40,125 nucleotides of DNA. It comes from Alphaproteobacteria bacterium. GTDB taxonomy: Bacteria > Pseudomonadota > Alphaproteobacteria > UBA9219. Within the stretch, counting starts at the first letter, position 1; each line of letters begins with the position of its first letter. A program made the translations under genes and the position numbers. The DNA is taken from assembly GCA_028690155.1 (NCBI GenBank), contig JAQVBU010000017.1, positions 1-40,125 of the forward strand, given 5' to 3'. Shown one piece after another: positions 35,764 through 39,123 of the stretch. The notes beneath the pieces were generated by a model. It worked only from the letters and a program-made list of their open reading frames with translations, ran no database searches and had not been told where the DNA came from.

Positions 35764-37080
35764 ATGATGACCGATACTTCCTCGCGTATTTTCGAACGGC
35801 TTCGGCTCGCCCATGGCAAGGATATCGATCTAAGCCTAAGGCCGGCCTATCGCGACCTTCTTGCAAAGCTGGGGGATCCCCAAGAGCATCTCCCTCCCGT
35901 TTTTCATGTCGCGGGCACGAATGGAAAAGGATCGGTCTGCGCGTTTTTGCGCGCGGTTCTGGAAGCATCGGGCAAACGGGTCCACGTCTACACGTCGCCG
36001 CATCTTATAACGCTCCACGAAAGAATTCGGCTTGCCGGACGCCTAATTGATGAAGAAGAGCTCGTCGACGTTCTTCTGGAAACGGAGGCCAAGGCGGCGT
36101 ACGGAAGCGTCAGCTTTTTCGAAGCGCTGACAGCGGCCGCTTTCGTCGCTATGGCGCGCCACCCTGCCGATTTCGTCATTCTCGAAACGGGCATGGGCGG
36201 CAGGCTCGACGCGACGAACGTCGTCACCAAACCGCTGGCGAGCATCATCACGCGCCTCTCTTACGATCATCGTGAATATCTAGGCAACACGCTCGATAAA
36301 ATTGCGAGGGAAAAAGCGGGCATTCTGCGCGCTTATGTTCCATGCTTCGCCGCCTTCCAACCCGATCCGGCCGCCCGCGCCGCTCTTCACGCGGAAGCCC
36401 AAGCCAAAAACGCTCCTTTGATGATGGAAGGGGAGAGCTGGACCATCGAACGGACCCCAAACGGCTTCCGATTCAAGGACGGCACGCGCACGGATGACCT
36501 CCCCACGCCCTCTCTTTTGGGCGAACACCAATATCACAACGCCGGGCTGGCGCTCGCCGCCCTCTCAGCCGTTTCGCCAACGCCGTCTCGGACCGCACGC
36601 AAACAGGGCATGCTAACGGTCGAGTGGCCCGCGCGGCTCCAACGCCTCGGTCCGGGCGCGCTGACGGCCCACGCGCCGGACGACGCCGAAATCTGGCTCG
36701 ACGGAGGCCACAATGACTCGGCCGGCGAAGTTCTGAAAAAACAAGTCGACCTCTGGCGCGTCGAGGACGGCAAAACGCCCAAGCCTCTTTATGTCGTTCT
36801 GGGCATGTTGAAGACGAAAAAACCGATGGAATTTATCGGCCCGTTTGCGACGGACATCGCCCATCTTGGCATCGTACCGATTCCGCACACGGCGGCGGCC
36901 TTCACACCGGAAGCCTTGGCCGAAAGCGTAGGCCCTTTAAAAATCGAAAAAGTCGATGTCTTTGAAAGCGTCATCCAAGCCCTTGAGCACATAAAGCGCA
37001 CAGGCGTTTCCTCCCCGCGTATTTTGGTATGCGGGTCGCTGTATCTTGCGGGAAGCGTTCTCTCCGAGCATAAAGTCTAA
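35764..37080 (+). CDS. folC: Folylpolyglutamate synthase / dihydrofolate synthase
   Basis: This 438-residue Mur-ligase-like enzyme adds glutamate to dihydropteroate and folates. It has the P-loop GTNGKGS (51-57), FFEALTAAAF, LETGMGGRLDATNV, and SYDHREYLGNTLDKIAREKAGI, all diagnostic; the C-terminal domain has DGGHN. The start is either the ATG at 35764 or the next codon; the ribosome site is weak. It begins 90 bases after rpoD on the same strand. The stop codon overlaps that of the small minus-strand gene. Confidence 0.95.
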   Translation: MMTDTSSRIFERLRLAHGKDIDLSLRPAYRDLLAKLGDPQEHLPPVFHVAGTNGKGSVCAFLRAVLEASGKRVHVYTSPHLITLHERIRLAGRLIDEEELVDVLLETEAKAAYGSVSFFEALTAAAFVAMARHPADFVILETGMGGRLDATNVVTKPLASIITRLSYDHREYLGNTLDKIAREKAGILRAYVPCFAAFQPDPAARAALHAEAQAKNAPLMMEGESWTIERTPNGFRFKDGTRTDDLPTPSLLGEHQYHNAGLALAALSAVSPTPSRTARKQGMLTVEWPARLQRLGPGALTAHAPDDAEIWLDGGHNDSAGEVLKKQVDLWRVEDGKTPKPLYVVLGMLKTKKPMEFIGPFATDIAHLGIVPIPHTAAAFTPEALAESVGPLKIEKVDVFESVIQALEHIKRTGVSSPRILVCGSLYLAGSVLSEHKV

Positions 37081-37292
37081 ACAGGGACGTACCCCTGTTG
37101 TTCATACGTCGGGATAGGATTTCCTTTTATAAGCGACAACGCATCATTGTCGAGAACAACAAGCAGACAATCGCGTGCACGAACAAGGTGCTGATAGGAT
37201 TCGAGAAACCCGCGTTTGTGAAGCAAAACCGCAAGTTCTGCGAGCTCATAGGCGATATCTTCTTCAAGGCTTACATAGCGAGAGGGGCGCAT
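37077..37292 (-). CDS. Small hypothetical protein (71 aa)
   Basis: This short, mostly helical protein has acidic and leucine-rich helices (VSLEEDIAYELAELAVLLHK, then YQHLVRARDCLLVVLD). GGAGG lies five bases before the ATG at 37292, which supports translation; the frame extends further upstream without such a site. Its stop codon overlaps that of the converging folC. It has no known function. The size and helix pattern would suit a small regulator or a subunit of a larger complex. Confidence 0.6.
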   Translation of the reverse strand: MRPSRYVSLEEDIAYELAELAVLLHKRGFLESYQHLVRARDCLLVVLDNDALSLIKGNPIPTYEQQGYVPV

Positions 37293-37473
37293 CATATCCT
37301 CCAAGCCAAAGTTGATGGAAGGAATTAAAAATAATACGCTTTTTGAGTAATAAAAAAAAGAAGGAGCCTTCCCGCGACGCAACAATTCATTGCTTCTTAT
37401 TGTTTTTTTGGGCGACTTCTGGAAAAAAGGAAGCATGACAAAACGCGCGTCTTCTGCTTAACTTGCACGCTGT

Positions 37474-37551
37474 TCATCCGGGGTGCCCCTCCTAAAAGGG
37501 GCTGAGATTATACCCGCAAAACCTGATCTGGGTCATGCCAGCGAAGGGAGA
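37474..37551 (+). promoter_or_regulatory. TPP riboswitch (THI element)
   Basis: The conserved THI core is present: GGGGTGCCC, then a P3 stem GCCCCT/AGGGGC, GGCTGAGA, TACCCGC, and ACCTGATCTGGGTCATGCC with AGCGAAGGGA at the 3' end. These match the pyrimidine- and pyrophosphate-sensing halves. The 3' end runs into the ribosome site GGGAG seven bases before the GTG at 37557, so thiamine pyrophosphate binding would most simply hide that site and block translation. No separate terminator hairpin follows. Confidence 0.95.
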
Positions 37552-37556
37552 TTATC

Positions 37557-38525
37557 GTGACAAAAAACTTTTGCGCACGTTTGGCGCCTACCAACGGGCA
37601 TCTTTTTTCAAAAAGCACCTTCTCACAAAGCACCCGCGCGCGTTTCTTCGACACGCCGCCGTGTGCGGGCCGAACCGTGACGGCGGGGTTCACTTATCTT
37701 CAGCGTATTGGCAAGGCAGCAAACTACGACATGTGGTTTCCCGCAGACCGTCGACAAGACCTGTTCAAAAAATACAGCGAAGGCACGCTCGCCGCCGGAG
37801 ATTTCCCGACTCAGTGGGCCGCCATAAGAGAAATCGAACTTCTGCATGAATCGGGAAACCACAAGATCTATGATCTTGATCCTCAAATGTTCGAACGCGC
37901 CGTTCTCGACCTCTCGCGCAGTATGCGCGCCGGAGGATACCGTCTAACCATCGCCACGCTTGGCGCGTATGACGAAGGGGCCGAACGCGACGATCTGGAA
38001 ATCCTCGACCAACGCCTGCAAGAAGGCCTCTCAAACGCCATCCACATGCTTTATCTGGAAGAAACAAGCGAGCAAATTAACGCTGAAAACGCGGCCAATC
38101 TGACCTCCGCCGCGTGGGATTACCGCGAGGCGCTTCCCCATGTCGGCATGGTGCTGGGTGCGCAACGGGTTTTCGGGCACAAGGAGACGGAACGCCATCG
38201 CCTCGCCGGGCGTTTTTTCGATATTCTGAACGCCCTGCCCCACACGCACATCGCGCACGATACGGCCGTCGGTCTTCAGATTCCGGAACTGTCGGGTGAA
38301 AATCAATGGAACTACATCGCCTCGCCCGAAGAAACGTTGAATGCCTTCAACCGCGTCTTGTCTCATGTCTTCGATAAATTCAACGGCGTGTCTCTCGGTC
38401 GCCTGCATGGGCGCGAAGATGCTTCCGACGAAATCCGCGCGTCAACGCTGCATCTGAGGGGATACGGTGATCGCCTGAACGAAAGCCAACGCTTTTATCA
38501 AAGCGCGGCCTTGGCGCTTGGTTGA
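37557..38525 (+). CDS. TPP-riboswitch-controlled protein of unknown function
   Basis: I do not recognise this 322-residue protein. The GTG at 37557 is fixed by the riboswitch-borne GGGAG seven bases upstream. Residues 1-45 are polar and Phe/Thr/Arg-rich. From residue 46 a mostly helical soluble protein follows (segments SEGTLAAGDFPTQWAAI, FERAVLDLSRSMRAGGYRL, EETSEQINAENAANLTSAAW, FNRVLSHVFDKFNGVSLGRL). No signal peptide, membrane segment or known thiamine-pathway motif is seen. It is not ThiC, ThiM, ThiD, ThiE, TenA or a TonB receptor. Regulation implies a link to thiamine synthesis, salvage or a TPP-dependent process. It is monocistronic and converges on the GGDEF gene with seven bases between stops. 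Confidence 0.85.
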   Translation: MTKNFCARLAPTNGHLFSKSTFSQSTRARFFDTPPCAGRTVTAGFTYLQRIGKAANYDMWFPADRRQDLFKKYSEGTLAAGDFPTQWAAIREIELLHESGNHKIYDLDPQMFERAVLDLSRSMRAGGYRLTIATLGAYDEGAERDDLEILDQRLQEGLSNAIHMLYLEETSEQINAENAANLTSAAWDYREALPHVGMVLGAQRVFGHKETERHRLAGRFFDILNALPHTHIAHDTAVGLQIPELSGENQWNYIASPEETLNAFNRVLSHVFDKFNGVSLGRLHGREDASDEIRASTLHLRGYGDRLNESQRFYQSAALALG

Positions 38526-38532
38526 TTTTCTC

Positions 38533-39123
38533 TCACCGGCTTGTCGACATCATAAGCTGAGCGGCTTCTTTGAGTCCGACCGATAGATCTTCATTGTCGC
38601 GGAACGTATAGGCCCCATAGCTGATCCGGGTCGGGGACAAGCCCTCGCCGACACGAGCCAACGCGTCCTGCAACGTCGCGGACAAGGATTCCGCCTTGCG
38701 CCACGCCGAGGCGTTATCGCATCGCATAAGAAGGATGCCAAATTCGTCGGGAGCCAAACGCCCCACAATATCCGAGCTGCGCACACCATGAACGAGGACC
38801 GAAGCGACTTCACGCAAGGTCGCGTCGGCTGTCGTCGGGTTCATCCCCTCAACATCAAAATAAAGGATGCTGGACATACCCCCATAGCGTTCGTCAAAGG
38901 CAAGCATGCGAGCGACTTCACGATTGAAGTCAACGCGGGTCAAAACAGCCGGTTCATCGGCGATTTTTTGCTGCTCGTATGCGCGAAGTTTCTCTTCGAG
39001 CTCTTGATTTTTAGCCAGCGCGGACGCCATCTCGCCACGGAAAGCGTTCCAAACGCGGCGCTGCTCGATCGTCAGAGCGGCCGAGGCCAAAGGATCGATA
39101 GAAAAGTCGAAAGAACGGGGCAT
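38533..39123 (-). CDS. Degenerate GGDEF-domain protein
   Basis: This 196-residue protein has an N-terminal helix and short coiled-coil (about 18-55, with LAKNQELEEKLRAYEQQ) that leads into a GGDEF fold (60-196). The metal strand reads ILYFDVEGMN (86-95), and the signature loop reads RLAPDEFGILL (122-132), where active diguanylate cyclases have RLGGDEF. Loss of both glycines predicts no c-di-GMP synthesis. No transmembrane or receiver domain is present. It may sense or scaffold. It is divergent from purE. Confidence 0.8.
   Translation of the reverse strand: MPRSFDFSIDPLASAALTIEQRRVWNAFRGEMASALAKNQELEEKLRAYEQQKIADEPAVLTRVDFNREVARMLAFDERYGGMSSILYFDVEGMNPTTADATLREVASVLVHGVRSSDIVGRLAPDEFGILLMRCDNASAWRKAESLSATLQDALARVGEGLSPTRISYGAYTFRDNEDLSVGLKEAAQLMMSTSR

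Follow-up and report, generated by a model that had tools for sequence, protein, structure and literature searches.

What is the function of a protein that stands behind a TPP riboswitch and resembles none of the families scanned? The window, by which we mean the whole stretch of 40,125 nucleotides analysed here from an alphaproteobacterial contig, raises this question through three overlapping or adjoining features:

37469..37566, + strand: TPP riboswitch aptamer (THI element), Rfam RF00059, whole model
37543..37550, + strand: probable ribosome binding site GAAGGGAG, within the aptamer
37557..38525, + strand: orphan-family gene, an ORF of 322 aa with a GTG start and its stop codon at 38523-38525

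The aptamer and the orphan protein

The match to RF00059 at 37469-37566 on the forward strand scored 73.5 bits (E 8.5e-13, model positions 1-105; gathering score, 54.3), in agreement with the first-pass annotation, which had called the THI element canonical, and it was the only match returned by the Rfam TPP scan of the 2,099,647-base genome. At its 3' end the aptamer includes the ribosome site and runs into the GTG start at 37557, with GAAGGGAG ending 6 nt upstream of the start codon; the placement of the ribosome site inside the aptamer and the 322-residue frame opened by this GTG had thus both been read correctly from the letters. In the alignment of the window aptamer with 23 others, the CTGAGA core is invariant in all 24 sequences, and compensatory (two-sided) changes occur in 7 of the 17 pairs predicted by their consensus. 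The terminal helix P1 is absent from this predicted consensus, and in RNA folding the window sequence taken alone did not outperform shuffles (z -0.54).

The next ORF downstream encodes a GGDEF-type protein on the opposite strand and starts at 38533, only 8 bases past the orphan stop, and the orphan transcription unit therefore looks monocistronic, as had been supposed. This neighbour (38533-39123, - strand) bears the signature RLAPDEFG in place of what we take to be the GGDEF motif, and may be an inactive cyclase. On the other side, a 119-aa ORF (37077-37436, - strand) with no Pfam or NCBIfam match lies between the riboswitch and a gene that we assume to be folC.

The orphan protein of the window is 52-59% identical to its homologs in nine further genomes of the genus that bear the gene (two of these homologs are cut by contig ends), and the differences between the window gene and that of G010 amount to 0.32, 0.21 and 0.62 at the three codon positions. 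The homologs, with differences concentrated at third positions, show that the frame is a real protein. Nevertheless, comparison of the window protein with Pfam, NCBIfam and the PDB sequences gave no credible match, and 28 family members scanned singly against Pfam and NCBIfam at E up to 1 yielded scattered weak matches and no thiamine family; among the 12 (Pfam) and 13 (NCBIfam) families listed, ThiC, ThiE, ThiL, TPK and TenA do not appear. A profile built from the 28 members and run against the PDB sequences at E up to 10 retrieved one FolD chain alone, with E 0.0059 across 54 positions. Kinship with FolD was rejected as chance, resting as it would on one PDB chain and 54 positions, with weak NCBIfam FolD models (best E 0.13). 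Searches with two single family members gave nothing useful, and the hhalign comparison of the orphan family with 4-row alignments from the sister family returned probabilities of 0.14% for ThiE and 0.04% for ThiL, i.e., no sequence relation to the latter; likewise, none of the 28 members matches the TPK family. Hence the earlier statement that the product belongs to no known thiamine family was upheld in the Pfam, NCBIfam, PDB-sequence and hhalign comparisons, and in the literature we found no title or abstract opening that describes the orphan family.

By a crude test on 28 rows, no segment attains transmembrane strength (highest 19-residue mean hydropathy, 1.19) and no N-terminal segment attains signal-peptide strength (12-residue maximum, 1.50), so that the marks of a thiamine transporter, membrane segments or the signal peptide of a binding protein, are absent by this measure. 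The N-terminus of the family is variable, and arginine and aspartate residues at R39, R50, R91, R129, D145 and D151 are near-invariant. Two AlphaFold runs on 2-row alignments ended at a mean pLDDT of 38.2 and 38.0, which is too low for a fold search.

Two members (L015:1456-2703 and L016:1393-2673) possess an insert of about 100 aa between the positions of window H195 and F220, and a match to the phage family phrog_8234, whose function is unknown, overlaps with it (3.3e-5 and 4.1e-10, respectively). A phage or plasmid origin of the family itself was rejected, as tblastn against 50,697 phage and 72,556 plasmid records found nothing at E 0.01; two viral-contig scans gave no orphan-family match, and an anti-phage library produced isolated weak matches only (best E 0.02).

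Distribution of the riboswitch-gene pairing

Our sample of the order comprised 34 genomes, namely 25 of the window's own family (f1), 5 of the sister family (f2) and 4 of f3. The orphan gene was found in 27 of them, the window's own genome included (f1, 23/25; f3, 4/4; f2, 0/5). Among 97 relatives, orphan-family matches were confined to f1 and f3 genomes, and the four matches obtained in a class-wide draw of 385 genomes all belong to f1 or f3; outside the order, no relative of the family appeared in the genomes searched. A peptide scan of genome contigs matched a single record (L032), an Alphaproteobacteria metagenome bin.

A TPP element, one in each genome, was detected in 23 of the 25 f1 genomes by a scan whose filters can lose weak matches, and these are identical to the 23 genomes that bear the gene. 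In every one of them the element lies directly upstream of the orphan gene, that of G014 scoring 53.2 bits, just below the Rfam threshold. Within f3 the element was found in G026 only, again before the orphan gene, which brings the genomes with the pairing to 24; G030 and G032 have diverged orphan copies without the riboswitch, and the copy of G028 is cut by a contig end. Neither gene nor element was seen in two f1 genomes, G005 (98% completeness) and G013 (63%), and about 2.2 misses would be expected from the stated completeness if all 24 f1 relatives carried the gene.

The geometry of the pairing is also conserved. In the 23 rows tabulated (22 f1 genomes, without G014, plus G026), the start codon always falls inside the riboswitch match, 7-16 nt from its end, the exact codon being a judgement since in each row the first codon after the element that seemed suitable was taken as the start. 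The ribosome site is exactly GAAGGGAG in 17 of the 23 rows, and close variants occupy the other six.

A few copies depart from this picture. The second orphan copy of G017 (L029:1456-2427, - strand) has no riboswitch, and a same-strand tRNA lies some 70 bases past the 3' end of this copy; in G024 a second orphan-gene fragment sits at a contig end. Just upstream of the orphan gene of G030 there is an inverted repeat (L026:1319-1419) with 33-nt arms that are 91% complementary and 35 nt apart, possibly an insertion that displaced the riboswitch.

We further compared 21 neighbourhoods of at most 14 kb each, taken from the window, 18 other f1 genomes, G026 and G030. Apart from the orphan family, no protein family occurs in more than four of the 21 (neighbours were not annotated singly), and groups of close kin share some neighbours, e.g., folC in three. 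The orphan gene was picked in 19 neighbourhoods, the mechanical ORF picker having taken an antisense frame in the other two, and the ORF following it lies on the opposite strand in 12 cases and on the same strand in six, with a contig end in one. In the protein tree, starred forks unite the genus group (10 rows) and 11 other f1 rows, a pattern consistent with vertical descent; the branches of the f3 rows are long and their placement is uncertain.

These results settle two points raised by the first-pass annotation. Homologs do stand behind TPP elements, in 23 of 23 gene-bearing f1 genomes and in G026, and the suggestion of a gene that came to stand behind a lost thiC's riboswitch has to be abandoned as far as a recent move is concerned, the pairing being common to all of these genomes in differing wider neighbourhoods. 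A recent rearrangement at 37550 is ruled out by the same conservation across f1 and in G026. The pairing is old and marks a lineage-specific member of the TPP regulon, not a recently stranded gene; an ancient capture of a thiC riboswitch is possible.

Thiamine genes and other TPP elements

The genome-wide search for thiamine proteins covered ThiC, ThiE, ThiL, TPK and, of the thiamine transporters, ThiB. ThiC was found in all five f2 genomes and in 0/29 genomes of f1 and f3, and precisely the same division holds for ThiE and for ThiL above their cut-offs. TPK was not detected by TIGR01378 in any of the 34 genomes of the order, nor by PF04263 in 34 relatives, 30 of which belong to this order (25 of the 29 f1 and f3 genomes), and ThiB/sfuA was absent from all 34 genomes of the order.

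Weak matches were inspected as possible hidden enzymes. Three f1 genomes gave ThiE matches of 19-21 bits against a cut-off of 27, and the one examined of these (G008) is an IMP dehydrogenase. Weaker ThiL matches turned up in every f1 and f3 genome, eight f1 genomes reaching 69-91 bits against a cut-off of 184; seven of these eight were examined and are HypE (335-410 bits), while the eighth, in G024, has a stop inside. The best ThiL match in the window's own genome is PurM, and likewise in G026 and G028. Since the ThiL-like matches examined turned out to be HypE and PurM, the absence of ThiL is strengthened.

The TPP-enzyme domain PF02779, by contrast, is present in 34 of 34 genomes, with two copies in the window's own genome and four matches in G005. 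It follows that the f1 and f3 bacteria need TPP but show no recognised synthesis of it among the enzymes searched. Moreover, the orphan gene and an above-cut-off ThiL never occur together in any of the 34 genomes, a complementarity that does not represent many independent cases because the losses amount to one or two events in the tree.

Beyond the orphan pairing, 29 other TPP elements were found, and the downstream gene was inspected for the 15 with loci at hand. Nine precede a thiamine synthesis gene, comprising thiC in six (G033, G042, G047, G036, G027 and G045) as well as ThiS-ThiG, ThiD and ThiE; five precede a transport-type gene, i.e., an NMT1-type binding protein, an ABC ATPase (2), an MFS/sugar-transporter-type protein and a TonB plug protein; and one precedes an alcohol dehydrogenase. 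Such targets provide a prior for calling the orphan gene thiamine-related. In f2 the TPP element precedes thiC in 5/5 genomes, three of them below the Rfam cut-off. Compared with the TPP riboswitches of thiC and other genes in Alphaproteobacteria, the window carries the same aptamer, with a complete model match and before one gene, whereas the protein controlled here matches no known family scanned.

Possible roles of the orphan protein

We consider it slightly more probable than even that the locus is a conserved TPP-repressed translation unit encoding a soluble, lineage-specific protein of thiamine or TPP salvage. When TPP is plentiful, it would bind the aptamer, the 3' end with the ribosome site would be held in the fold, and the protein would not be made; when TPP is low, the ribosome site would be free and the protein made. 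Translation is probably blocked in the TPP-bound state, to judge from the anatomy of the element and from known TPP riboswitches. The protein's task would then be to obtain or finish TPP in bacteria whose de novo synthesis has been lost. A role in thiamine metabolism is most likely in view of the regulation and the genome content, and the orphan gene probably helps f1 bacteria to obtain vitamin B1 in a way not yet described. Since the crude test revealed no transmembrane-strength segment in any member, the likeliest candidate is a soluble salvage protein, in the most plausible case an enzyme whose substrates are imported thiamine or its phosphates. A bolder reading, less probable but not remote, is that the family took over the final step of TPP formation from thiamine or TMP as a non-orthologous replacement, or forms the core of a TPP acquisition route not described so far. 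Counting against the salvage reading are the copies without a riboswitch (G030, G032 and the second of G017), the small number of thiamine-loss events, and G005, which lacks gene and riboswitch despite its PF02779 domains, so that the gene would be dispensable there unless an assembly gap is responsible. Even so, we have a concrete candidate gene for how TPP-dependent bacteria without recognised TPP synthesis obtain TPP, and the family-wide riboswitch pairing links an otherwise featureless protein family to one metabolite, which renders its function directly testable.

Among specific roles, a non-orthologous TPP-forming kinase (thiamine or TMP to TPP) that replaces both ThiL and TPK would fit the gene content best. 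ThiL above cut-off and TPK are both missing in the 29 f1 and f3 genomes where TPP-enzyme domains persist, 27 of these 29 carry the gene as against 0/5 of the ThiL-bearing f2, and the protein is soluble with the near-invariant arginines and aspartates given above. Nevertheless, there is no match to a known kinase family and no fold, direct import of TPP would equally explain the missing kinases, and G005 and G013 show neither gene nor kinases, so that we judge this precise role unlikely. B12 riboswitches control B12-independent enzymes, and by analogy the orphan protein, induced by TPP shortage, might be a TPP-independent substitute for a TPP enzyme. Its solubility, its presumed production at low TPP and its standing as the only TPP-riboswitch target found in the genome agree with such a substitute, to which we give somewhat less credence still, because the protein has no similarity to any known enzyme family and PF02779 domains are kept in 34/34 genomes.

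Import of TPP itself, suggested by the failure to find a TPP-forming kinase, could in turn involve the orphan protein as an exported or partner protein that aids uptake of TPP or thiamine from a host or neighbours, the variable N-terminus or the phage-like loop insert of two members serving as targeting parts. That proposal seems improbable to us, given the lack of an N-terminus of signal-peptide strength by the same crude test and of any recurring neighbour gene in the 21 neighbourhoods. Finally, the function may have nothing to do with thiamine: upon the loss of thiC, its riboswitch could have been taken over by an ancestral gene, with the pairing then kept by inertia. The TPP element stands before thiC in all five f2 genomes and before the orphan gene in f1, and the diverged f3 copies without a riboswitch accord with such a capture. 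However, f1 and G026 have kept the aptamer core and the ribosome-site geometry although their wider neighbourhoods differ; this points to selection on TPP control and makes inertia the least probable of the explanations considered.

Kazanov et al. (2007; PMC2211319) reported twelve THI elements in metagenomes, upstream of genes for which databases offered no relatives, two of them being alike; the pairing described here extends over 24 genomes.

Among the other elements inspected in the present study, the one in G049 (L041:1501-2800) has a zinc alcohol dehydrogenase 165 nt downstream, which is an unusual target for a TPP riboswitch.
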